From the NCBI GenBank assembly GCA_016212935.1, contig JACRDE010000395.1, forward strand, positions 1 through 37,447: a stretch of DNA of 37,447 bases, written 5' to 3'. Below are positions 1-12,579 of the stretch, piece by piece (within the stretch, counting starts at the first letter, position 1; every line of letters begins with the position of its first letter). Source of the DNA: Desulfomonile tiedjei. Its GTDB lineage: Bacteria; Desulfobacterota; Desulfomonilia; Desulfomonilales; Desulfomonilaceae. The notes beneath the pieces are model-generated. The model did not search any database and was not told the DNA's origin. It worked only from the letters and a program-made list of their open reading frames with translations. Both the position numbers and the translations under genes were made by a program.

Positions 1-1697
1 CAGCACAGTTGTTGGACGTGAGAGTTGCCGCTGTAGCAGGAGGAACATTCCATTCTACCGGGAACATGCTTCTGAGGAGATACGCATCACTGCTGGGCTT
101 TGAGTCCTCGTTTTCCATCATGGACCAGGGGGACTCGCTGGAAGCTCTGGATCATGTGAAGAAGAGCCTCAATCCGCCTATAGGAGATGCAAAAGGATTT
201 CCCAAGACTCGCACCATCGCGGAGATAATCACTCGGTCGGTGGGGTCTTCGTGCAGCATCGCGGAGTCTTTGAAGAAGCGCTATCCCCATTTCGAGGAAT
301 ACGCGCCTGAAATAGAAAGGATACTGAATCAATACGAACAACACAAGAAATCCAATAATCTCATGGATTATGACGACCTGCTCGTGAACATGATTCGTCT
401 CCTGGAGGAGCATGAGAAAGTCAGGGAGGACGTGTCCACAAAATGGCAATACGTTCTTGTGGACGAATATCAGGACACTAATCGTCTCCAGGCAAAGATA
501 GTGAGGCTGCTTGCCTACACCCACGACAACGTGATGGTCGTGGGTGATGATTCCCAGAGCATCTATTCCTTCAGGGGCGCTGATTTTACTCACATTATGG
601 AATTCCCGAAGATTTTCCAAGGCTCAAGAATTATCAGACTCGAGGAAAATTACAGAAGCACCGCTCCCATACTTACGGTAACGAACAGCATAATCGAAAG
701 AGCTGCAATGGGATACCCCAAGAGGCTTTTCACGAGGAAAAGCGGCGGACCTCTGCCCATACAAGCTAGAGCGTCTACTGAACGTGAACAGAGCAGGTTC
801 GTCCTGCAATGCGTGAAAGAACTTCACGAGCATGGGGTTCCTTTGTCGGAAGTGGCGGTGCTTTTCCGCGCCGGCTTTCATTCGTTCGATCTGGAAAGCG
901 AGCTTACGCGCAACAACATAACGTTCGTCAAGTACGGCGGCTTTAAGTTCCTGGAAAGCTTGCATATAAAGGACGTGGTCGCACATTTGAGAATAATCAT
1001 CAATCCCAAAGACCGCCTGAGCTGGATCCGGATTCTCAGACTGCTGCCAGGCATTGGGGATAAGACGGCCCTTCAGCTTGCCGGTAGAATAGTGGAAGCA
1101 GGCGTTCCCAAGACCGCTTCAGAGCTGACTGGTAAGCCGCAGAAGTATTCCGAGTCACTGGGAAAGCTAGTCGACCTGATTAATGAACTCGACGCGGATA
1201 CCGGTCCTATATCCCACAAGGTCGAACTCATAAACCATTACTACTTTCCCTTCTTGAAGGAAAAATACGACAACTACCCCAAACGGATGCGTGACCTGGA
1301 CTATCTGGCCGACCTCACGACTGGCTATAAGAGCTTGAACAGATTTCTGAACGACATGGCATTGGAGCCTCCGGATGAAGAAAAAACCAACGGTTACGGC
1401 AAGCAGGACGCTCTTGTTCTCTCTACCATACACTCGGCGAAAGGCCTGGAGTGGCACACTGTGATTCTGATCTGGGCGGCAGAAGGGCGAATTCCTTCAC
1501 CCATGGCCATCGGTTCGCCGGAAGACCTAGAGGAAGAACGCAGACTTCTTTATGTGGCCACTACTAGGGCGAAGCACAATCTGGTGGTGGTCGCGCCCCA
1601 CATGGCTCTGGATCGTCAGAAGGGGCATGTGCCGGTGAAACTGTCCAGGTTTGTTGAAGAAATTCCGCAGGAGTACTTCCGCACTCACTCCGTTTAG
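1..1697 (+). CDS. UvrD/PcrA/Rep-family ATP-dependent DNA helicase, 5' truncated by the window edge
   Basis: Superfamily 1 motifs VLVDEYQDTN, VVGDDSQSIYSFRGA, LEENYRST, LSTIHSAKGLEW and EEERRLLYVATTRAK. The Walker A region expected at the N-terminus is absent, so the gene starts outside the window. Confidence 0.95.
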   Translation, partial: AQLLDVRVAAVAGGTFHSTGNMLLRRYASLLGFESSFSIMDQGDSLEALDHVKKSLNPPIGDAKGFPKTRTIAEIITRSVGSSCSIAESLKKRYPHFEEYAPEIERILNQYEQHKKSNNLMDYDDLLVNMIRLLEEHEKVREDVSTKWQYVLVDEYQDTNRLQAKIVRLLAYTHDNVMVVGDDSQSIYSFRGADFTHIMEFPKIFQGSRIIRLEENYRSTAPILTVTNSIIERAAMGYPKRLFTRKSGGPLPIQARASTEREQSRFVLQCVKELHEHGVPLSEVAVLFRAGFHSFDLESELTRNNITFVKYGGFKFLESLHIKDVVAHLRIIINPKDRLSWIRILRLLPGIGDKTALQLAGRIVEAGVPKTASELTGKPQKYSESLGKLVDLINELDADTGPISHKVELINHYYFPFLKEKYDNYPKRMRDLDYLADLTTGYKSLNRFLNDMALEPPDEEKTNGYGKQDALVLSTIHSAKGLEWHTVILIWAAEGRIPSPMAIGSPEDLEEERRLLYVATTRAKHNLVVVAPHMALDRQKGHVPVKLSRFVEEIPQEYFRTHSV

Positions 1698-1733
1698 AAG
1701 TCGCTGCAAGCCTTCAGTCGCGTGGTGCAAACT

Positions 1734-1821
1734 GTAATTGCGAGAAACGAAGTGCCGAAGCAATCTTTCCCTTTTTATGGCCCTCAACTCAATGAGATTG
1801 CTTCCCTGCGCTCAAAATGAC
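1734..1821. repeat. Imperfect inverted repeat / hairpin element, copy 1
   Basis: gtaattgcgag...gaagcaatct...(loop)...gagattgcttc...ctgcgctcaaaatgac. Both arms resemble the element at 19947-20022. Confidence 0.55.
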
Positions 1822-1932
1822 AGCATCCCAGCCGAGCGTCCTTCCCGCCCACTAGTGAGTGGTTACAAATTGCGGCCGAAGGGCCTTGACATTCTACCGC
1901 TGGCCAAATACTCTAGTGGGATCGACCTCCGC

Positions 1933-2025
1933 GGAGAGATGACCGAGAGGCCGAAGGTGCTCGCCTGCTAAGCGAGTGTAGGGCGTAGAGCCTTACCGAG
2001 GGTTCGAATCCCTCTCTCTCCGCCA
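1933..2025 (+). tRNA. tRNA-Ser (anticodon GCT), CCA encoded
   Basis: Acceptor ggagaga...tctctcc-g-cca, anticodon arm ctcgcctGCTaagcgag, long variable arm, T-arm gagggttcgaatccctc. Confidence 0.93.
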
Positions 2026-2050
2026 TTCCTCTCACCTCGAGTTCTCCTTT

Positions 2051-2593
2051 TCAGCGAAAGAGAATCAGACTGACGATCACGGCAGCGACTACTCCTGCAG
2101 CATCCGCCAGTAATCCCGCGTGGACCGCATATCGAACACGAGTTACAGAAACAGCCCCAAAATATACAGCTACCACGTAAAGCGTCGTCTCAGTGCAGCC
2201 TGTAATCACGGAAGCCAATCGAGCTTCATAAGAGTCTGCACCGCGGCTCGAGATGATCCCCCCAAGGATCCCCAGTGACGCGCTTCCGGAAAGCGGTCTC
2301 ATAAGGCTCAGGCTCACCACGTCTGGAGTCAGCCCAAGGCTCTTCATGAAATCGGGGAAGGCAGCGGAAATCATGTCCATGGCGCCAGAGGCCCGAAACA
2401 TCCCCACAGCCACAAGTATGGCGACAAGGTAGGGAATAATACGGACAGCGACCTCGAACCCCTCCCGCGCTCCTGTAACGAATGTCTCGTATACCTTTAC
2501 GCCTTTGAAATAACCGTAAACCGGAATTCCTACCAAGAAAGACAGGAAGACTATATTGGAAGCTATTGAAACAAATCCAGGCAACCCGTCCAT
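2051..2593 (-). CDS. spmB: Spore maturation protein B-like (nucleoside recognition/Gate domain membrane protein)
   Basis: Hydrophobic protein containing MRPLSGSASLGILGGIISSRGADSYEARLASVITGCTETTLYVVAVYFGAV, typical of SpmB. Adjacent to the spmA-like gene. Confidence 0.85.
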   Translation of the reverse strand: MDGLPGFVSIASNIVFLSFLVGIPVYGYFKGVKVYETFVTGAREGFEVAVRIIPYLVAILVAVGMFRASGAMDMISAAFPDFMKSLGLTPDVVSLSLMRPLSGSASLGILGGIISSRGADSYEARLASVITGCTETTLYVVAVYFGAVSVTRVRYAVHAGLLADAAGVVAAVIVSLILFR

Positions 2594-2595
2594 GA

Positions 2596-3198
2596 TCAGC
2601 CTCGATCCTTGTCTTCGCGAAATCTACGCATCCTGGATAAGAATTTCGCAGAGAGAACTCCTGTTACGGTGGATACAATCGTGGCCAACAGGGCAGGAAA
2701 GACTATTATCGTGGGGTCGGAAGATCCACCTGCGGCCAAAAGTGCTATGGCTCCGGCAGGGACAAGCTGTAAGCTTGACGTGTTAATGGCCAGGAACATG
2801 CACATGGAATCCGTGGCGGTATCTTTGCGGGCGTTAAGGGAGTCAAGATCCTTCATGGCCCTGATCCCCAGGGGGGTAGCCGCGTTGTTTAGCCCAAGCA
2901 TGTTCGCGACCATGTTCATTGCCATGCTCCCCATAGCCGGGTGATCGCGAGGTATCTCCGGGAACAGATACCTCATTATGGGTGCGATTGCCCTTGTGAT
3001 CAGCTCAACGAGACCGCTTTCTTCGGCTATTTTCATTATGCCCAGCCAGAGCGCCATGACGCCAGTAAATCCGAGGGCCATCTTGAAAGCCGATTCAGCG
3101 CTTTCAGTGACCGCAGGTACTATGTCCTTCAGATGGCCGGTGAACACTGACACGACAACAGACCCCACCAGCAGTACAAGCCAGATGACGTTCAACAC
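2596..3198 (-). CDS. spmA: Spore maturation protein A-like (nucleoside recognition/Gate domain membrane protein)
   Basis: MLNVIWLVLLV...GVMALWLGIMKIAEESGLVE...MNMVANMLGLNNAATPLGIRAMKDL, typical of SpmA. Confidence 0.85.
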   Translation of the reverse strand: MLNVIWLVLLVGSVVVSVFTGHLKDIVPAVTESAESAFKMALGFTGVMALWLGIMKIAEESGLVELITRAIAPIMRYLFPEIPRDHPAMGSMAMNMVANMLGLNNAATPLGIRAMKDLDSLNARKDTATDSMCMFLAINTSSLQLVPAGAIALLAAGGSSDPTIIVFPALLATIVSTVTGVLSAKFLSRMRRFREDKDRG

Positions 3199-3261
3199 GG
3201 CAATTCACCCCTCTTGCTCAGGTTGACGGTCAAACCAAAGGCCGTCCAATTCGGTCGGATA

Positions 3262-4401
3262 TTACGCCCTGCTTTTTATGAAGGAAACACTGGATAGCGG
3301 AATGGTGTAAAGATCGCTCCCTGCTTCAACGCCGATCAGACCGTTCTCGTTCCACATAAGAACGCCGTTGATGAGTGTTTCTGAACCGATCAAAGAGATC
3401 TCTACCTCGGTTTTGGTGGAAGACAGTTTTTCGAGAATGCTGCTTGTGGTGGCAACCGAAGTGGACGTAACGCGTCCCATCGTGGTGGTGACCGGAGGGG
3501 ACTCCACTGAGGTAACCACATCAGATTCGATCTCCGGTTCGTAATCCTCATCGGGCCCAGGCGGCAGAGGGCCGTCCGCAACCACGCTGCCAGTCATGGA
3601 AATATCATCGATGAGTTCATCGATAATCGTCTCGTCCAATACGAGAGAGTCTTCCAGAGACTGGCCTGCCAAAGGCGCGCCACCCTGGCTACGGGGATCC
3701 TGAGATCTTTCCTCGGAGAACCCGGGGGGAGCAGAAGCGGGCTTGGGTGCAGGCCTAGGAGACGGGGGGACAACAACTCGCTGCCCAAGATTCTCAAAAT
3801 CCTGGAGAGTGTATCTGAAGTTAGGGTTTATAAACTTTACGTCGCAATTGACCGGCTTTCCAGGCACTTTGGTGTTTACGGTCTCGGGCAGGCGCAGCAC
3901 TGTGTCCAAGCTCACATCAGTATCGCATTGCAGATGATCGCTGATGGTGCGCAGGATTTTTTCAATTTTCTCGATGTCCGTGACTTCCGTCACCTGCTTC
4001 AGCAGCCAGTAGAGATGCGCTCCCCTGCCTGATTCAACGATGATGGACGGGGCCCTAGGAAAACTCCGGATCGCCTTTGCAGCTTGCTGAGGACCTTCGT
4101 AGAAGACTCTCTTGTCTTCGTGGCCCTCCGATCCGATATCCAGATCGGCCCAAAGCGCCACTAGGTAGTGAATGTGCTCTTTCTCGGCTTTCATTCGTTC
4201 CCTGGGGCAGATACCGAAATAGACGTCCCTTTCTTCTCCGTAGTGCTCTTTGGCCAGAATCTCTATATTCGGAAAGTAACGGGTGCTCATTTTGGGATCG
4301 CCGCGCTTTACGCTCTTTACCAGAATGAAGCCTCTGTGCTCCTTGTAGTAAGGTGAGAACAGAGCCTCAAGAAAGTCCTTGCGCGTGAATTTGGCGATCA
4401 T
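3262..4401 (-). CDS. RepB/AEP-type primase-like protein with a disordered linker and a putative Sm/Hfq-like C-terminal domain
   Basis: Motifs in the order expected of the RepB-primase/PrimPol family: LVALWADLDIG (DxD), VESGRGAHLYWLL (SGxGxHxYW), CDTDVSLDTVLRLPETVNTK (RLPxTxNxK). C-terminus KTEVEISLIGSETLINGVLMWNENGLIGVEAGSDLYTIPLSSVSFIKSR resembles an Sm-fold strand order. Confidence 0.7.
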   Translation of the reverse strand: MIAKFTRKDFLEALFSPYYKEHRGFILVKSVKRGDPKMSTRYFPNIEILAKEHYGEERDVYFGICPRERMKAEKEHIHYLVALWADLDIGSEGHEDKRVFYEGPQQAAKAIRSFPRAPSIIVESGRGAHLYWLLKQVTEVTDIEKIEKILRTISDHLQCDTDVSLDTVLRLPETVNTKVPGKPVNCDVKFINPNFRYTLQDFENLGQRVVVPPSPRPAPKPASAPPGFSEERSQDPRSQGGAPLAGQSLEDSLVLDETIIDELIDDISMTGSVVADGPLPPGPDEDYEPEIESDVVTSVESPPVTTTMGRVTSTSVATTSSILEKLSSTKTEVEISLIGSETLINGVLMWNENGLIGVEAGSDLYTIPLSSVSFIKSRA

Positions 4402-4508
4402 GAAGAACCCTTGTAACCTGTAATTAGAAAGGAAATTTGCCGACCATTCTATTATTGGACGGACAAAAAGTCAATATTACGCTGCGTTCAGGGCCCGATA
4501 GAATGGCG

Positions 4509-5921
4509 TCATCCCTCTTTGGTCTTCTTCTTGGCGGTGCCTTGTTCTTTCTTCTCTTCCGTCAGGTGGCTTTTTTGTTTGGCTTTAGAGAGATTATCCT
4601 GGATTACTTTATTGTTGGGAACGAGTTTCGCTGCCTTCGTCAGCAGGTCCGTCTCTTGCTTGTGGTCCCCCCTTTTCCCGAGGATTACCGCATAATCATT
4701 GTATGCCAGGGCGAGATCGTCCTTTATTTCTGCGCTGGAAGGAACCAATTTATGGGCCTTCTGAAGCAATCGGATCTCTTCCTCATGTTTTCCTGCTTCT
4801 CCGCTTTTCAGACCCTCGTTGTGATAGGCCGCTGCCAAGTTGGCCTGGACCGTTTTGTTGTTCGGATCGATCTTCGCCGCTTTTTCCAGTATGTCCGCTG
4901 CCTTGGAAAACGCTCCATGTTTGGCTTCGGCCACCGCCTTTTCAATCAATAGACGACTTAAATTGCCTATTGTGGACTGGTTGTTTGGATCCAGTTTCAA
5001 AGACGATTCGAGAAGCGCAATGCGGTCTGTCGGTCTTATATCCGAGTTTTCGGAAACAGCATAGTTGTTGTATGCAGCGGCAAGATTAGTCTTCGTGATC
5101 GAATCTCCGGGGAGAAGGTCCAATGATTCTTTCAACAAGGCGATCTGAGCCGTCGTGTTACCTTCTTTTCCCTTAATTACAGCCAGGTTGGACATTGAGC
5201 GCGCCAGATGCTCAGTGATCATAGGATCTTTTGGGGAGAGCTTCAGAGCGGCTTTTAGAAGCTCCGTTTCTTCCTGATGCCCCCCTGCTCTTCCCTTTTC
5301 CACTGCCACGTTGTAGTAAGCCGTGGCCAGGTTTTTCTTTATTTTTGAATTGGCAGGGTCCAGCGACAACGCTCTCTCGAGTTCTTCGAGTTCCTGTTCA
5401 TGGCTTCCGGTTTTGCCTTTTGTCACCCCCGCGTTGTTGAGCAAGGCGGCCAGAATCTTACGGGCCGCCGCGTTTTCAGGCTCCAGTTCCACTACTTTTT
5501 TCAACGCGGCTGTCTTCTGTTCAAGCGGTATCTTCTCTTCGGGAGCAGCGGCCGCCTGAAGTGTCCCATGAATGAAATTGGCCGTTATATCTTTGTCGTC
5601 CGGGGTGAGTTCCCTGGCTTTGGTAAGAGATCTCAGGGCATCTCTGATATTTCCTTCACGGTTGGATTTCAGTCCTAAATTATTGTACGCGACCGCAAGT
5701 ACGCTCTTGTACTTACTGTTTTGAGGTTCCAATTTAACTGCTTTTTCGAGCGCCTCAACCGCTTCGGAAATGCTTTCCCTGGACAGGAGATGACTGCCCC
5801 TAAAGAAGGCGTTTTCAGCCTGCACAGAGTCAGAGGCATCTTCCCCCCAGGCAATAGAACAACAAACAAGTAGTAAAAAGGGAATAATACCGACACTTCT
5901 AGGAATTACACATGAGATCAT
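4509..5921 (-). CDS. Secreted TPR-repeat protein with about nine 41-residue repeats
   Basis: Start at MISCVIPRS..., signal-peptide-like N-terminus ending ..CCSIAWGEDA. Repeats of the form LAxAYNNxAVxxGKxGxHxxExxLLxKAxKLxPxNxxIxxN. Confidence 0.85.
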   Translation of the reverse strand: MISCVIPRSVGIIPFLLLVCCSIAWGEDASDSVQAENAFFRGSHLLSRESISEAVEALEKAVKLEPQNSKYKSVLAVAYNNLGLKSNREGNIRDALRSLTKARELTPDDKDITANFIHGTLQAAAAPEEKIPLEQKTAALKKVVELEPENAAARKILAALLNNAGVTKGKTGSHEQELEELERALSLDPANSKIKKNLATAYYNVAVEKGRAGGHQEETELLKAALKLSPKDPMITEHLARSMSNLAVIKGKEGNTTAQIALLKESLDLLPGDSITKTNLAAAYNNYAVSENSDIRPTDRIALLESSLKLDPNNQSTIGNLSRLLIEKAVAEAKHGAFSKAADILEKAAKIDPNNKTVQANLAAAYHNEGLKSGEAGKHEEEIRLLQKAHKLVPSSAEIKDDLALAYNDYAVILGKRGDHKQETDLLTKAAKLVPNNKVIQDNLSKAKQKSHLTEEKKEQGTAKKKTKEG

Positions 5922-6163
5922 CGCAGACCTCTCAAAATTGTTGGAGCGTTTCCGCAAGCATTTATCACAATATCATGAGCAGCTCTTCGGGTCAATTGTT
6001 AAACGGTTTCATTTAGATCCGTCAGAATCCTATCTGTGACACTGCGGAAATTGAAACCGACATTATCGCTTACCATGTCGACGCGTTTCCGATCAGCTCT
6101 TGACAAATCCGGTTGTATGGGTAAAAGGAAGCTTTTGACAGAGAGCGTTAAGGAGCATAGCCG

Positions 6164-7150
6164 ATGATCGAAGTGGAAGGCCTGACCAAATACTACGGAC
6201 GGCTGGCGGCCATCAGGGGCGTTAATTTTCGCGTAGAATCCGGCGAAATAGTGGGTTTTCTCGGGCCAAACGGCGCGGGGAAAACCAGCACGATGAGAAT
6301 ACTTACGTGCTTCTCACCAGCTTCCGCCGGAGTTGCGCGCATTCTCGGAATGGACACCCGCGAGGACTCCATGAAGATCCGACAAAAAGTGGGTTACGTT
6401 CCTGAGAACGTCCCTCTCTACGAATGGATGCGCGTGAGAAATTACCTCGAGTTCGTGGCTCGAGCGAAACGGGTTTCTGCTTCGGATCGGTCCGCGGAAA
6501 TCAATCGCGTGGCTGAATCCGTGGGACTGGATCAGGTGATGGACAAGCTGATTCGATCCCTGTCCAAGGGCTATCGGCAAAGAGTGGGATTGGCTCAGGC
6601 GTTGCTGGGAAATCCGCCCATATTGATACTGGATGAGCCCACCATCGGCCTGGATCCAAAGCAGATACGAGAAATAAGACAGCTCATAAAAAGCTTCTCT
6701 CACAACAGGACCGTGATCCTGTCGACTCACATTCTCCCCGAAGTGAGCCAGGTTTGCGACCGCGTGATCATAATCAACAAGGGGTCCATTGTTGCTGAGG
6801 ATTCACCGTCGAACCTTATGAAAAGCCACGGCAAGTTTTCCAGGGCCCGGGTCGTAGTGAGGGCGCCGGACGCCGAGGCAACCGAACTGTTCTCAGGACT
6901 TCCAGGAGTTCATTCCGCGCATTCTGTTGCTCCCGCGGAAAACGATGAAGTGGCGGTAACCGTGGAATCCTCACCTGATATCGATGTCCGGCCAGCCCTG
7001 GCTCGGGCAGTGATGGAAAAGGGATGGGATCTCCTGGAACTGCGCAGCCTTCAGGTAAGCCTTGAGGACGTGTTTATAGATTTGATCACTGAAGAAACTG
7101 AAGACCAGGGGGCCCCGGAGGACCAGGAGCGCAAGGAGGAGACTGCATGA
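6164..7150 (+). CDS. ABC transporter ATP-binding protein (GldA-like)
   Basis: Walker A GPNGAGKTS, signature LSKGYRQRVGLAQAL, Walker B ILILDEPTIGLDP. Followed directly by permease and GldG-like genes. Confidence 0.93.
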   Translation: MIEVEGLTKYYGRLAAIRGVNFRVESGEIVGFLGPNGAGKTSTMRILTCFSPASAGVARILGMDTREDSMKIRQKVGYVPENVPLYEWMRVRNYLEFVARAKRVSASDRSAEINRVAESVGLDQVMDKLIRSLSKGYRQRVGLAQALLGNPPILILDEPTIGLDPKQIREIRQLIKSFSHNRTVILSTHILPEVSQVCDRVIIINKGSIVAEDSPSNLMKSHGKFSRARVVVRAPDAEATELFSGLPGVHSAHSVAPAENDEVAVTVESSPDIDVRPALARAVMEKGWDLLELRSLQVSLEDVFIDLITEETEDQGAPEDQERKEETA

Positions 7151-7917
7151 CCGGATTGATTGCAGTGTTTCGCAAGGAGATGGCTGGTTTTTTTGTGTCG
7201 CCTGTGGCGTATTGCGTCATAGCGAGTTTCCTGTTTATTTTCGGCTTCTTTTTCTGGGCAAATATGTCCTTTATGAGTTTGGTGAGCCTCCAGGCGATGA
7301 ATAATCCAATGATAGCGGAACGCATCAACCTCACTGACATTGTGGTCAGGCCCTTGCTTCAGAACATGGGGATAGTTTTGCTTTTTTTGATTCCGTTGCT
7401 ATCCATGAGAGTATTTGCGGAGGAGAAGAAATCCGGGTCCATTGAATTGCTGCTCACCTACCCTATTTCGGACGCTGCTGTGGTGTTGGGAAAGTTTCTG
7501 GCAAGCGCTCTACTGTTATTGATTATGCTGCTTGCCACGTGGCCGTCCATGATCCTTTTGTTCGGGATCGGAGACCCTGATGCTGGAAACATGCTCACTG
7601 GTTATCTCGGGCTATTTCTTATGGGCGGTGCTTTCATGGCTCTCGGTGTTTTCGTTTCTTCCCTCACGGAAAACCAGATCATCTCCGGAGCATTGACCTT
7701 CGGAGCGGCCCTGCTTTTCTGGGTACTGAGCTGGAGTTCCACACTCGCCGGAGACCCTTGGGGAACAGTGCTGCGCCAGTTGTCCATACTTGAGCATCTC
7801 GAGTCCTTCTACAAAGGATTGATAAACGTGTCTGACCTTTCGTTTTTTGTGCTCTTTACGAGTTTTTTCCTCTTCATGACCTTTCGGTCTCTGGAAACCT
7901 ACAGGTGGAGGGGGTAA
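7147..7917 (+). CDS. ABC transporter permease (GldF-like)
   Basis: Hydrophobic; RVFAEEKKSGSIELLLTYPISDAAVVLGKFLAS typical of ABC-2 permeases. Start overlaps the upstream stop. Confidence 0.9.
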   Translation: MTGLIAVFRKEMAGFFVSPVAYCVIASFLFIFGFFFWANMSFMSLVSLQAMNNPMIAERINLTDIVVRPLLQNMGIVLLFLIPLLSMRVFAEEKKSGSIELLLTYPISDAAVVLGKFLASALLLLIMLLATWPSMILLFGIGDPDAGNMLTGYLGLFLMGGAFMALGVFVSSLTENQIISGALTFGAALLFWVLSWSSTLAGDPWGTVLRQLSILEHLESFYKGLINVSDLSFFVLFTSFFLFMTFRSLETYRWRG

Positions 7918-7920
7918 ACA

Positions 7921-9402
7921 ATGGCGATCAATTCCAGAAGCAAGATCTTTCTCGGAGGCGGAACCGCAGCGGGTGTTTTGATATTCCTGGCCATAATCGT
8001 GGGGGTTCAGTACATAGCGTTGCAGCACCCCAAGCGGTGGGATCTCACCGGGAGCGGTAAGCACACACTCGCTCCTCAGAGCAAGAAGCTCATGGAAACG
8101 CTGAGAGAAAAGAAACTCCCAGTGGAGATCCTGGCCTTCTACGAATCAAAAGATATGGGCCCTCGGGATAACGCCAAGGATTTGCTGGATCAATACAAAG
8201 ACGCGTATTCCGATTTCAAGTATTCCTTTGTAGACCCCGATAAAGAACGAACCCTTGCGATCCAAAACAAGGTCGAAGCCTACCCCACCCTGGTGATAAA
8301 GGTCGGGGGCAAAGATGAACGAATCACGACAGCAGACGAAGAGAGCCTCACTAATTCGGTCGCCAGGTTGCTAAGGACGGAAGTCAAGAAAATCTATCTA
8401 CTCAAAGGGCACGGCGAATTGTCTCCAGAATCGTCCGAAGTCGATGGATTCAATGCAGGTAAGGCCGCAATTGAAAAGCAGAATTATAAGGTAGAAGATT
8501 TGGTTCTGCTGCAAGCCCCGGGAGTACCGGAGGACGCCTCTGTCGTAATAGTCGCCGGCCCCAAAACGGATCCCCTGGATACGGAAATCCATTCAATAAA
8601 AGAGTACTTGAATCGCGGTGGGCATCTCATGGTGCTTCTCACTCCATTCAAGACCCCGAAACTTTGCGCCCTGCTCAATGATTACGGATTCAAGACTGCG
8701 GATGACATAGTTGTGGACCGCATGAGCCGCGTGCTTGGCGGGGACTATCTCATGCCGGTGATAACTACGTACATCAAGTTTCCCATCACCAAGAATTTCA
8801 CTCTGGCATCATTCTTCCCTGAGGTCCGATCCGTGGTGGCCTCTCGTGACTACAAGCCCGGAGTAGATGTTCAGGAACTCGCCCTGACCAGCCCAGTATC
8901 CTGGACCATTAACGAAGAGCAGCTTAATTCCGGGAATGCAAATTTCGACGAAAAAACAGGGATGAAGGGACCTGTCTCAGTGATGGCCGCATCAACTTTT
9001 ACTGCTCCCCATGGAAAATCAGACAAGGAAAAGGACAAACAGCTCTCAAAGGAAGAAGAGTTCACAGAGCCGGGTTCACAGGACCAAAAGGCCACGGATA
9101 AAGGCGATCAGCCCAAGGCCGTGAAGTCTCGGATTGTGGTATTCGGGAGTTCTCTTCTCGCTGCGAACAAGTTCTTCAAACTTCAGGGGAATCCTGATCT
9201 GTTCATGAACTCGGTCTCCTGGCTCGCAGAAGACGAGAACTTGATAGCCATTCGTCCGAAATCCACAAAATCCAACCCGATAGTTCTTACAGGCAGCGAA
9301 TCATGGGCAGTCCTTCTGATCCCACTGCTCATAATTCCCTTCATTTGGATCGGGATCGGCGTGGTGGTTTATCTGTACAGGCGGAGGACAGTGCTTGCAT
9401 GA
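7921..9402 (+). CDS. GldG-like ABC-type auxiliary component
   Basis: N-terminal TM, W..LTGSGKHTLAPQSKKLMETL...PVEILAFY, C-terminal TM. Lies directly after the permease. Confidence 0.85.
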   Translation: MAINSRSKIFLGGGTAAGVLIFLAIIVGVQYIALQHPKRWDLTGSGKHTLAPQSKKLMETLREKKLPVEILAFYESKDMGPRDNAKDLLDQYKDAYSDFKYSFVDPDKERTLAIQNKVEAYPTLVIKVGGKDERITTADEESLTNSVARLLRTEVKKIYLLKGHGELSPESSEVDGFNAGKAAIEKQNYKVEDLVLLQAPGVPEDASVVIVAGPKTDPLDTEIHSIKEYLNRGGHLMVLLTPFKTPKLCALLNDYGFKTADDIVVDRMSRVLGGDYLMPVITTYIKFPITKNFTLASFFPEVRSVVASRDYKPGVDVQELALTSPVSWTINEEQLNSGNANFDEKTGMKGPVSVMAASTFTAPHGKSDKEKDKQLSKEEEFTEPGSQDQKATDKGDQPKAVKSRIVVFGSSLLAANKFFKLQGNPDLFMNSVSWLAEDENLIAIRPKSTKSNPIVLTGSESWAVLLIPLLIIPFIWIGIGVVVYLYRRRTVLA

Positions 9403-9520
9403 TTCCTTTCCGTGGCGTGTACTGTGATCCACTCGGATTGTCCGGAGGGCTCGCTCGTACGTTTTGTTAAGAGTAATGGGGCGTATCAATTCAGAAGATT
9501 CTGATCTCGAATCCACCCAA

Positions 9521-9540
9521 CCGTCTTCTGATGAAGACGG
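9521..9540. other. Perfect 8-bp inverted repeat (CCGTCTTC-TGAT-GAAGACGG)
   Basis: Read directly from the sequence. No T-tract follows, so it is not a canonical intrinsic terminator. Confidence 0.5.
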
Positions 9541-9674
9541 ATTGAGGAGATTTTCATCCGGTAACCTTGATTCTGATTAGACTCTTGGCAATCGCTACGA
9601 GCATCTTCCAGGGAAGTTCCGCAGTTGGACACATTTCCTTTTGAATTTTCAGATCTCGTCTTGGAGGCCTTATT

Positions 9675-11147
9675 ATGAAATTGCGCAATATCTCAATATA
9701 TCTAATTATTTTGGTGGCTCTTGGGGCTTACGTATACTTTGTTGAAATCAAACATAAGAAGGAACAGCAAGCTCAAGAAGAAAAAGCGGCAAAGATCCTT
9801 CAGCTCGAAAAGGACAAGGTTGTCAGGGTTGAGTTAAAGACTTCAGACGGCACCATAGAACTTCAGAAGCCCGGTGAATCGTGGGTATTGACTTCACCGA
9901 TCAAGACCGGCGCGGATCAAATTGCCGTGGGATCGCTCATCCATTCCGCTCTGGACGCCAAGCCCGAAAAGGTGATCTTGGAAAAGGATGCTAATTGGGA
10001 CGAGTTCGGCCTGGACAAACCTGCGTTCACAATTACGCTTGCTACGAAAGACAAGAAGACCGAAGTTTTTTTCGGTGCGACGAACCCGTCGAAAAGCTCG
10101 TACTACGCGCGAGTCGATGAACAACCGAAACTCCTCCTCGTGGCTGACACGCTCAAGAATAGCCTCAACAAGAGCCCGTACGACCTGCGGGACAAATCCA
10201 TTTTGACTCTTGCTGCGGAGGACGTAGATCGGGTGGTAGTGTCCAGGGGACAAGAGTCGGTAGAACTCGAACTCCAGGACAAAGACAAGTGGTTACTCAC
10301 AAAACCCGAGCGTTTCAGGGCTAAGCAGTCGGTAATTGAAGCGGGATTGAACAGTCTTGCCGCCATAAAAGCGAAAGAAATCATTGATGAGCCCAAAACC
10401 GATGGAGACCCTTACGGATTGGACAATCCGCAGGAATCCATAACAATCGGTGGCAAGAATATTGAGCAGACACTCCAGATAGGCAAAGCGGCCGGCGAGG
10501 TTAAAGCGTCTGCGCCAGGTGCGACACCCAATTTTTATGCAAAGATCAAGGGGCACGACACGGTATACGTAATCGAGGGAAGGGCCATAAAGGCCCTGAA
10601 GGCTGACGCCAAAGAACTGCGGGATCGGGCAGTGGTGACGTTCAATCCATCTGACATAGAAAAAGTGGAGATAACGTTGGACGGCAAAACTTGGCTGGCA
10701 ACCCAGGGGCCAGACAAGGTGTGGTCTTTGGAGAAACCCGAGAAAAAAGACAAACTCGATAACTGGGCTATCAGCGGAATGTTGTGGAGTCTAAAGGACC
10801 TGGAATGGAAATCCATTCTTAAGCCTGGGGCTGACCCTACATCGACCCAATTGTCAAACCCGCAGCTCGTGGCTCAGTTCTTCAAGAAAGGTGACAAAGA
10901 TCCGATAGTTCTCAAAGCCGGTTGGCCACAAGAGGAACAGAAAAAGAACGAACCGGCCGAAACCAGCATAGATGACAAGAAAGAGACAACCGGAAAAACC
11001 ACCGCAGTTCCTGATGAGAAGAAGACGCCGTCAACGGTAAGTGTTTCAGTGCAGCCACACGAGGAGGAGAATGCAATTTTTGTCTTGGATGGCAATTTCT
11101 TGGAGCGCTTGCGGGAAGACTTGCAGAAACTTGCTGAAAAGAAGTGA
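9675..11147 (+). CDS. DUF4340-type protein associated with the Gld-like ABC transporter
   Basis: N-terminal TM (MKLRNISIYLIILVALGAYVYFVE), repeated V.RVELKTSDGTIELQK...W.LT.P style modules, position after gldAFG-like genes. Confidence 0.75.
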   Translation: MKLRNISIYLIILVALGAYVYFVEIKHKKEQQAQEEKAAKILQLEKDKVVRVELKTSDGTIELQKPGESWVLTSPIKTGADQIAVGSLIHSALDAKPEKVILEKDANWDEFGLDKPAFTITLATKDKKTEVFFGATNPSKSSYYARVDEQPKLLLVADTLKNSLNKSPYDLRDKSILTLAAEDVDRVVVSRGQESVELELQDKDKWLLTKPERFRAKQSVIEAGLNSLAAIKAKEIIDEPKTDGDPYGLDNPQESITIGGKNIEQTLQIGKAAGEVKASAPGATPNFYAKIKGHDTVYVIEGRAIKALKADAKELRDRAVVTFNPSDIEKVEITLDGKTWLATQGPDKVWSLEKPEKKDKLDNWAISGMLWSLKDLEWKSILKPGADPTSTQLSNPQLVAQFFKKGDKDPIVLKAGWPQEEQKKNEPAETSIDDKKETTGKTTAVPDEKKTPSTVSVSVQPHEEENAIFVLDGNFLERLREDLQKLAEKK

Positions 11148-11388
11148 TTACTTGAGGATTCCGTCTCTGTACGCGTTCCTGGCAATGAATTTTGCAGGGC
11201 TACTATCCGGCGTCCCCAAGGCACGCCCCTCTTTTGAGCCCTGTGGGGATTGCTGAAAGTAGTCCGGTGCTTCAGCGCCGGGCGATCATGATGGCACAAT
11301 TCCGACCATTAGAAAAGATCTGAGACAGCGTCTCCCTTCCGGCCCTTCCGCAGTTTTGTCACCCGATTGAAAAGCCTATCCTGAAAAT

Positions 11389-12579
11389 CTAATGAACTGT
11401 GCATATTGCGCTGAGCGCGTCTCTTCCAAATGGAGATATGGACCTCAGGAATTCTATGATTCCCGGGAGTTCCCGAACCACGAATTCTATCTCCTCCTCA
11501 GTACTGAATCTTGAAAGAGAAAACCTGATCGACCCGTGAACTGCAGTGAACGGTACGCCCATTGCGCGTAATACGTGGGAAGGTTCCAGCGAGCCGGAGG
11601 TGCAGGCTGATCCTGAAGAGGCGCAGATCCCCTTTTCATCCATTCTCATCAAAATGGCTTCCCCTTCCACGTACTCGAACCCAATACTGAGAGTGTTCGG
11701 GAGCCGCCGTTCCAGATGACCGTTCACGCGACAAGCTGGAATTCTCTCGAGAAGGGCCTTTTGAAGTCGGTCGCGAAGCTGACGTACACGGGTGTTCTCT
11801 TCCACCAGATTCTTCCTGGCCAATGCCGCAGCGGCGCCAAGGCCTACTATGCCTGGTACGTTTTCCGTACCGCCTCGGCGATCAGACTCTTGATGGCCTC
11901 CAATGACAAAGGGGGAAAATCTGGTTCCCTTCTTGATATACAGAGCACCTATGCCTTTTGGCGCGTGGAGCTTGTGGCCGGACAAAGCCAAAAAGTTGAT
12001 GTTGGACTCAGACACCTTAATGGGAATTTTCCCTACTACTTGCACGGCGTCCGTATGCATCAGGGCGCCATGTTCCTGGGCGATTTCAGCTATTTCATCT
12101 ATGGGAAAAATCACTCCGGTCTCGTTGTTGGCCCACATTACGGACACAAGAGCGGTCTCGTCGGAGATTTTGTTGCGCACCTCATTCATATCCAGCATTC
12201 CGTCTTTGTCCACTGAAAGCCAACGGACAATGTATCCTTTGGTACGAGCAAGATGTTTGCACAGGTTCAAGACCGCAGGGTGTTCTACTCGAGTCGCGAC
12301 GATTTCGCGTCTACCCGGGTTGGTGGCCAATGCGCTGAGAATGGCAGTTGAATCCGATTCGGTACCTCCTGAGGTATATACTATCTCCTGTGGGGATGCC
12401 CCGAGCAGTTCTGCCAGAGATCTCCTTGCAGCTGAAACCTCTCTCGCTACGCTTCCGCCGAACGAATGCATACTGGAAGGATTACCGTAGCGCTCTGTAA
12501 AGTAAGGTCGCATGGCCTCAAAAACCTCAGGAGCGACCTTCGTTGTAGCGTTATTGTCCAGGTAGACGACCTTTTTCAT
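11389..12579 (-). CDS. nifS: Cysteine desulfurase, NifS type
   Basis: [61 protein letters not shown]. Confidence 0.95.

Follow-up and report, generated by a model that had tools for sequence, protein, structure and literature searches.

A gene on the minus strand of a 37,447-nucleotide stretch of Desulfomonile tiedjei DNA (the window) encodes a protein in which an AEP primase domain, whose motif residues appear intact in alignments, is followed by a C-terminal domain predicted to adopt the Sm/Hfq fold. Among the genomes searched, only those of the family Desulfomonilaceae carry this fusion, at a shared chromosomal locus. We consider it most likely that the product is an active primase or primase-polymerase, oligomerized through its Sm domain and acting on host DNA. 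The best explanation in its full form, that of a domesticated AEP primase which, oligomerized by a linker-joined Sm domain, makes primers or patches on host ssDNA, is in our judgment about evenly balanced between right and wrong. The protein consists of three conserved islands, namely the AEP domain, a short acidic motif, and the Sm/Hfq-fold domain, set between fast-evolving linkers, as follows.

3262..4401, minus strand: AEP-Sm fusion gene, 379 aa, ATG start at 4401 (ORF and orthologue comparison)
3784..4401, minus strand: AEP primase domain, residues 1-206 (PHROG, tblastn, and PriS profile matches; pN/pS 0.03)
4138..4146, minus strand: motif I, D86-L-D88, predicted catalytic metal ligands (alignments)
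4015..4017, minus strand: motif II, His129 (SGRGxH), nucleotide binding (alignments)
3922..3924, minus strand: motif III, Asp160, third catalytic Asp (invariant in 3 fusion proteins and 10 mobile-element or related primases)
3874..3894, minus strand: motif IV, Arg170 ... Asn176, PrimPol-PV1 signature, spacing 6 (alignments)
3658..3783, minus strand: linker 1, Pro/Ser/Ala-rich, residues 207-248 (pN/pS and composition)
3592..3657, minus strand: acidic motif LEDSLVLDETIIDELIDDISMT, residues 249-270, about 20 residues, net charge -8 (pN/pS)
3442..3591, minus strand: linker 2, acidic and Pro/Ser/Thr-rich, residues 271-320 (pN/pS and composition)
3265..3441, minus strand: Sm/Hfq-fold domain, residues 321-379 (AF2, VIA-align, Foldseek, and sub-threshold Pfam match)

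The gene is under strong purifying selection in its domains, which is relaxed in the linkers. Between two genomes of the same genus, pN/pS is lowest in the acidic motif (0.025) and the AEP domain (0.03), intermediate in the Sm domain (0.20), and highest in the linkers (0.44 and 0.62); across comparisons, the values span 0.03-0.12 for the AEP domain, 0.025-0.09 for the acidic motif, and 0.44-0.83 for the linkers, with synonymous sites at or near saturation. The acidic motif, despite its position in mid-linker, is thereby conserved on a par with the primase domain, and a related stretch, TLVLDESLVEVVEDS, is present in one paralogue (L011). By its appearance, it might be a docking motif.

The AEP fold assignment rests on sequence, because AF2 gave no confident model of this domain (residues 1-206, six sequences; pLDDT about 25-65 in 10-residue blocks). 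The similarity of the N-terminal part to primases is well above chance in sequence searches: its best match in PHROGs is a phage polymerase/primase family (E 1.1e-9, residues 52-188), and tblastn recovers an Oceanotoga phage primase (3e-12) and Bacillaceae plasmid primases, those of pGEOTH02 (4e-12) and of an Anoxybacillus plasmid (6e-12), with all these phage and plasmid matches confined to the N-terminal ~207 residues. Further, a profile weakly matches the archaeal primase small subunit PriS (1g71; E 0.0088) over the corresponding motif III-IV region. NCBIfam yielded no match to the fusion protein, a Pfam domain search found no fused helicase or PriCT domain in it, and PADLOC assigned the primases to no defence family. 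In the course of these comparisons, AEP-like-motif proteins of Pseudanabaena phage Pam3 (L108:2902-5253) and of Bordetella and Pseudomonas phages were seen to be deposited as “integrase,” probably a propagated misannotation, and AEP-motif proteins of Clostridia plasmids (L111:2872-4140, Paraclostridium), annotated as “DNA-binding response regulator,” are likely to be misannotated replication primases.

As judged from the alignments, the residues of AEP superfamily motifs I, II, III, and IV are intact in the fusion protein, which supports its catalytic potential. Motif I (hhhDhD/E) reads LWADLD, with D86 and D88 retained in all eight readable fusion orthologues; its counterpart in phage and plasmid primases has D or E at the D86 position and D at that of D88 (D/E-x-D). 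Motif II (sxH) is G127-A-H129, or G-L-H in one orthologue (G010), and H129 is again present in 8/8. In motif III (hD/E), D160 aligns with an invariant Asp of ten primases and is kept by seven of the eight orthologues. The Arg-hydrophobic pair of motif IV and the Asn six residues on, characteristic of PrimPol-PV1, are represented by R170 and N176 in 20/20 family sequences, with the same spacing as R231/N237 of PolpTN2, a mark of the PrimPol-PV1 supergroup (PMC5862659). Over 13 aligned sequences, comprising three fusion proteins and ten phage, plasmid, and related primases, D88, D160, S124, G125, G127, R170, and P172 are invariant. The segments that a preliminary description of this locus had quoted as primase motifs are all in place (residues 84-90, 124-132, and 170-178). 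Of the two outcomes that it had named as refuting, neither came about in the fusion orthologues: the C-terminus matches the Sm fold by predicted structure, and D86, D88, and H129 are retained in all eight readable ones. It gave no strand and did not mention the acidic motif, D160 as the third catalytic aspartate, or the degenerate paralogues described below. The one orthologue lacking D160 (G010, L010) has Gly at this position, along with a diverged acidic motif and linker. It is possibly a lineage losing catalysis, which may be dispensable there given the missing aspartate.

For the C-terminal domain in isolation, AF2 (six family members) gave a pLDDT of 85.6 and a topology of one helix and five strands, and the predicted model has the N-terminal helix and five-stranded bent sheet of the Sm/Hfq fold; the full-length model repeats these elements at residues 315-377, in blocks of pLDDT 72-85. 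In comparisons with the PDB by Foldseek and VIA-align, Hfq structures make up 50/50 of the matches listed, the best among these being 6gwk_A (Z 11.0, rmsd 1.4 Å over 61 residues, 18% identity), and the Foldseek E value against Hfq is 4.7e-4. Together with the PHROG and tblastn matches of the N-terminal part, the modeled fold bears out the earlier suggestion that a primase and an Sm/Hfq-like domain are joined in one protein. At the profile level, Pfam Hfq_1 (PF21979) matches the isolated domain with E 0.0048 and 17.4 bits, below the cut-off of 27 (six of nine members match), and the full protein with E 0.18; PF17209 does not match the fusion protein. Since the hhalign match to the Desulfomonilaceae's own Hfq is marginal (score 17.0 vs 16.7 for the best of 60 column shuffles), the Sm/Hfq assignment depends mainly on the predicted fold. 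A tblastn search of plasmids and phages with the Sm domain gave chance matches only (E 3 and 7). An Sm-profile match in another genome (G059; L060, E 0.0036) was rejected, its translation being that of an unrelated phosphatase/phosphodiesterase-like protein.

In Hfq, the FDxF and YKHA residues form the uridine pocket and the rim arginines bind RNA, and Sm-fold domains do not universally form rings. The same genome carries a separate, canonical Hfq, and alignment to it places WNENG opposite SFDSF, YTIP opposite YKHA, and SSTK opposite the rim RKAR; the residue at the Q8 position and most rim arginines are likewise absent from the fused domain, the net charge of which is mostly negative. Because the uridine-pocket residues are gone, the RNA guidance put forward in the preliminary description is not supported. 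One might still suppose that the Sm domain binds RNA and passes it on to the AEP domain, there to serve as a primer, template, or guide for RNA-dependent or RNA-primed DNA synthesis, a notion that could appeal to the predicted Hfq fold, to the reverse transcriptase activity of the plasmid AEP PolpTN2 (PMC5862659), and to the zinc-finger/Hfq-like fusions whose genes follow closely after helicase genes in archaeal plasmids (PMC3543421). However, the lost RNA-binding residues and the charge of the domain, the presence of the cell's own Hfq, and the finding of a tRNA-Ser as the sole RNA gene within positions 1-12000 of the window make it distinctly improbable. Very unlikely is a docking role, in which the domain would enter mixed rings together with cellular Hfq or some other Sm protein and so tie the primase to RNA metabolism: the predicted fold is the same as that of Hfq, which is encoded in the same genomes, but the two are only about 20% identical, and genera without the fusion have Hfq too.

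The locus around the fusion gene comprises the following features.

4446..4474, minus strand: sigma-70-like promoter TTGACT-N17-TAGAAT, upstream of the fusion gene, conserved in 7/8 genomes
4509..5957, minus strand: TPR gene, upstream, with an apparent signal peptide; constant neighbour
2596..3198, minus strand: spmA-like gene, downstream, 63 bp after the fusion gene
2051..2593, minus strand: spmB-like gene
9-1697: UvrD/PcrA-like helicase ORF, convergent with the primase operon
1933-2025: tRNA-Ser(GCT), between the UvrD-like ORF and spmB

The order TPR, fusion, spmA, and spmB is conserved; two genomes without spmAB retain the TPR and fusion genes side by side, and wherever the locus is long enough to show it, the TPR gene stands with the fusion gene. 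In genera g5 and g7, which do not have the fusion, spmA directly follows the TPR gene: the fusion gene either entered a TPR-spmA-spmB operon or was lost from it. In the seven genomes with the promoter, a TTGAC and a -10-like element stand at the same position. The operon holds no replication or repair genes, and mobile-element genes were not seen near the locus. The TPR protein was considered as a partner and set aside, its signal-peptide-like N-terminus suggesting that it is exported, which makes direct contact with the primase unlikely. The earlier statement that no helicase is present stands insofar as none is fused or specifically linked to the primase, and fails for the window as a whole, in view of the UvrD/PcrA-like ORF. 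The latter, for which the sister family gave no match at E 1e-80, adjoins the locus also in genera without the primase and lies elsewhere in some carriers; hence, it is probably unrelated, and a functional link was rejected.

Our searches covered 99 relatives and 395 genomes sampled evenly from the phylum, and the fusion was found in 9 of the 11 Desulfomonilaceae genera seen. Eight of the nine copies are full length, with that of G002 cut by the contig end, and the full-length orthologues in seven other genomes of the family are 55-80% identical. A tree of the UvrD-like host helicase has a branch with 99/99 support that separates carriers from non-carriers, so that one gain or one loss suffices. 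In the AEP tree, all Desulfomonilaceae copies form a single clade (99/99) apart from the mobile-element primases, within which the Sm-fusion clade (92/81) and a clade of paralogues (93/91) are sisters. Fusion copies were found neither in viral nor in plasmid collections, and scans of viral contigs returned no relative. The fusion gene is vertically inherited, consistent with the host tree. The Desulfomonilaceae carriers are soil and groundwater bacteria.

Taking the vertical inheritance together with the gene's own conserved promoter and its insertion into, or loss from, the TPR-spmA-spmB operon, we propose that it is most likely a mobile-element primase, domesticated once and kept as a host gene, with the mobile origin inferred from where its relatives live. 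This accords with the “exapted mobile-element protein” of the preliminary description. That it might rather be a still-mobile or decaying remnant of a selfish element, devoid of host function, we hold to be exceedingly improbable: the nearest relatives do reside on phages and plasmids, and bacterial AEPs of this kind were reported to occur almost without exception on integrated elements (PMC5862659), but the locus is shared across genera, with a conserved promoter and no mobile element seen around it, and purifying selection is strong with saturated synonymous sites. The fusion is an exception to the confinement reported in that study.

The D. tiedjei genome has two further AEP genes, and its relatives carry one or two, whose chromosomal surroundings vary; they co-occur with the fusion in 8/9 carrier genomes. 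There are 12 such paralogues (L002, L003, L011, L015-L020, and L022-L024). None of the AEP paralogues has an Sm domain, and their C-terminus is instead a long amphipathic helix, as predicted from sequences such as ...ADEIVDKVVDRL... In each of the 12, two of the three catalytic aspartates are gone, D86, which is replaced by G or A in 12/12, and D160, the position of which is taken by A, S, P, G, Q, N, R, E, T, or K, and they retain D88, S124, G127, H129, R170, and N176. They are under purifying selection, yet evolve faster than the fusion (pN/pS 0.20 and 0.32 vs 0.03 and 0.08 in the same genome pairs). They are probably noncatalytic binders of nucleotide or DNA. These dead paralogues, with their retained binding residues, their selection and co-occurrence, and the loss of D160 from the G010 orthologue, strengthen the main rival to our proposal, namely a purely regulatory role in which the AEP domain senses nucleotides or ssDNA, or acts as a nucleotidyltransferase, in a complex with the paralogues, and DNA synthesis is not its function. 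We nevertheless regard this as unlikely, given that both motif I aspartates are retained in 8/8 of the fusion clade and D160 in 7/8, and that the AEP domain of the fusion is far more constrained than that of the paralogues (0.03 vs 0.20).

Returning to an active primase, we envisage that an ancestor shared by most Desulfomonilaceae domesticated an AEP primase from a mobile element as a chromosomal gene, with a long flexible linker joining the primase to the Sm-fold domain. The latter might self-assemble into a ring bearing several tethered AEP heads, each on about 115 linker residues, which would allow a single stretch of ssDNA to be engaged by several catalytic domains. The acidic motif could bring in a partner, for example a protein of replication or repair. 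The acidic recruitment motif that human PrimPol has in its disordered tail offers an analogy only, and bacteria have SSB, not RPA. Action on ssDNA is plausible; working on that of the host, the enzyme may make primers or short patches of DNA, as in repriming or gap filling, rather than replicate an element. The inactive paralogues with their helical C-terminus might serve as noncatalytic nucleotide- or DNA-binding partners, or as competitors. The more specific picture of an Sm ring with multiple active heads and dedicated dead-paralogue regulators, constituting a cellular non-DnaG priming or repriming machine in one bacterial family, is correspondingly tentative, and we would rather doubt than assert it.

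In the open-access full-text literature, we found no report of a primase-Hfq/Sm fusion or of inactive AEP paralogues matching these. Here, then, an AEP is fixed in the chromosome of most of one bacterial family, together with a predicted Sm/Hfq fold and conserved pseudo-primases. Should this AEP prove active, it would be a bacterial host priming enzyme besides DnaG, on a possibly oligomeric Sm scaffold, and the system offers a natural setting for testing the job of inactive primase copies.

Among known systems, the PrimPol-PV1 AEPs (Kazlauskas 2018, PMC5862659) and the D5-helicase-linked primases of phages and plasmids (pGEOTH02, Oceanotoga phage UFV02) share with the fusion motifs I-III, the Arg...Asn spacing of motif IV, and significant similarity across the AEP domain. 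The fusion differs from them in having an Sm-fold C-terminus and neither a helicase nor PriCT, and, unlike PrimPol-PV1, which is typically (if not by definition) found on integrated mobile elements, it has a fixed chromosomal locus across genera. Likewise, in contrast to RepB-type primases with a helicase, it has no fused or adjacent replicative helicase or PriCT, the nearby UvrD-like gene not being tied to the presence of the primase. Human PrimPol, an RPA-recruited repriming enzyme (PMC5457501), resembles the fusion in being an AEP that acts without its own replicative helicase, but it has no Sm domain. With Hfq and Hfq_1 (PF21979), the C-terminal domain shares the predicted fold, strand order, N-terminal helix, and the Tyr that starts the Sm2 region, but it falls under the Pfam cut-off, has neither FDxF nor YKHA, is fused to an enzyme, and is distinct from the true Hfq of the genome. 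The nearest precedent comes from the zinc-finger/Hfq-like proteins encoded beside helicase genes on archaeal plasmids of Thermococcus and Methanocaldococcus (PMC3543421), which have an Hfq-like C-terminal domain and a link to the replication cassette of a mobile element. These are separate archaeal proteins, whereas in the Desulfomonilaceae the domain is fused to the primase itself, in a fixed chromosomal gene.
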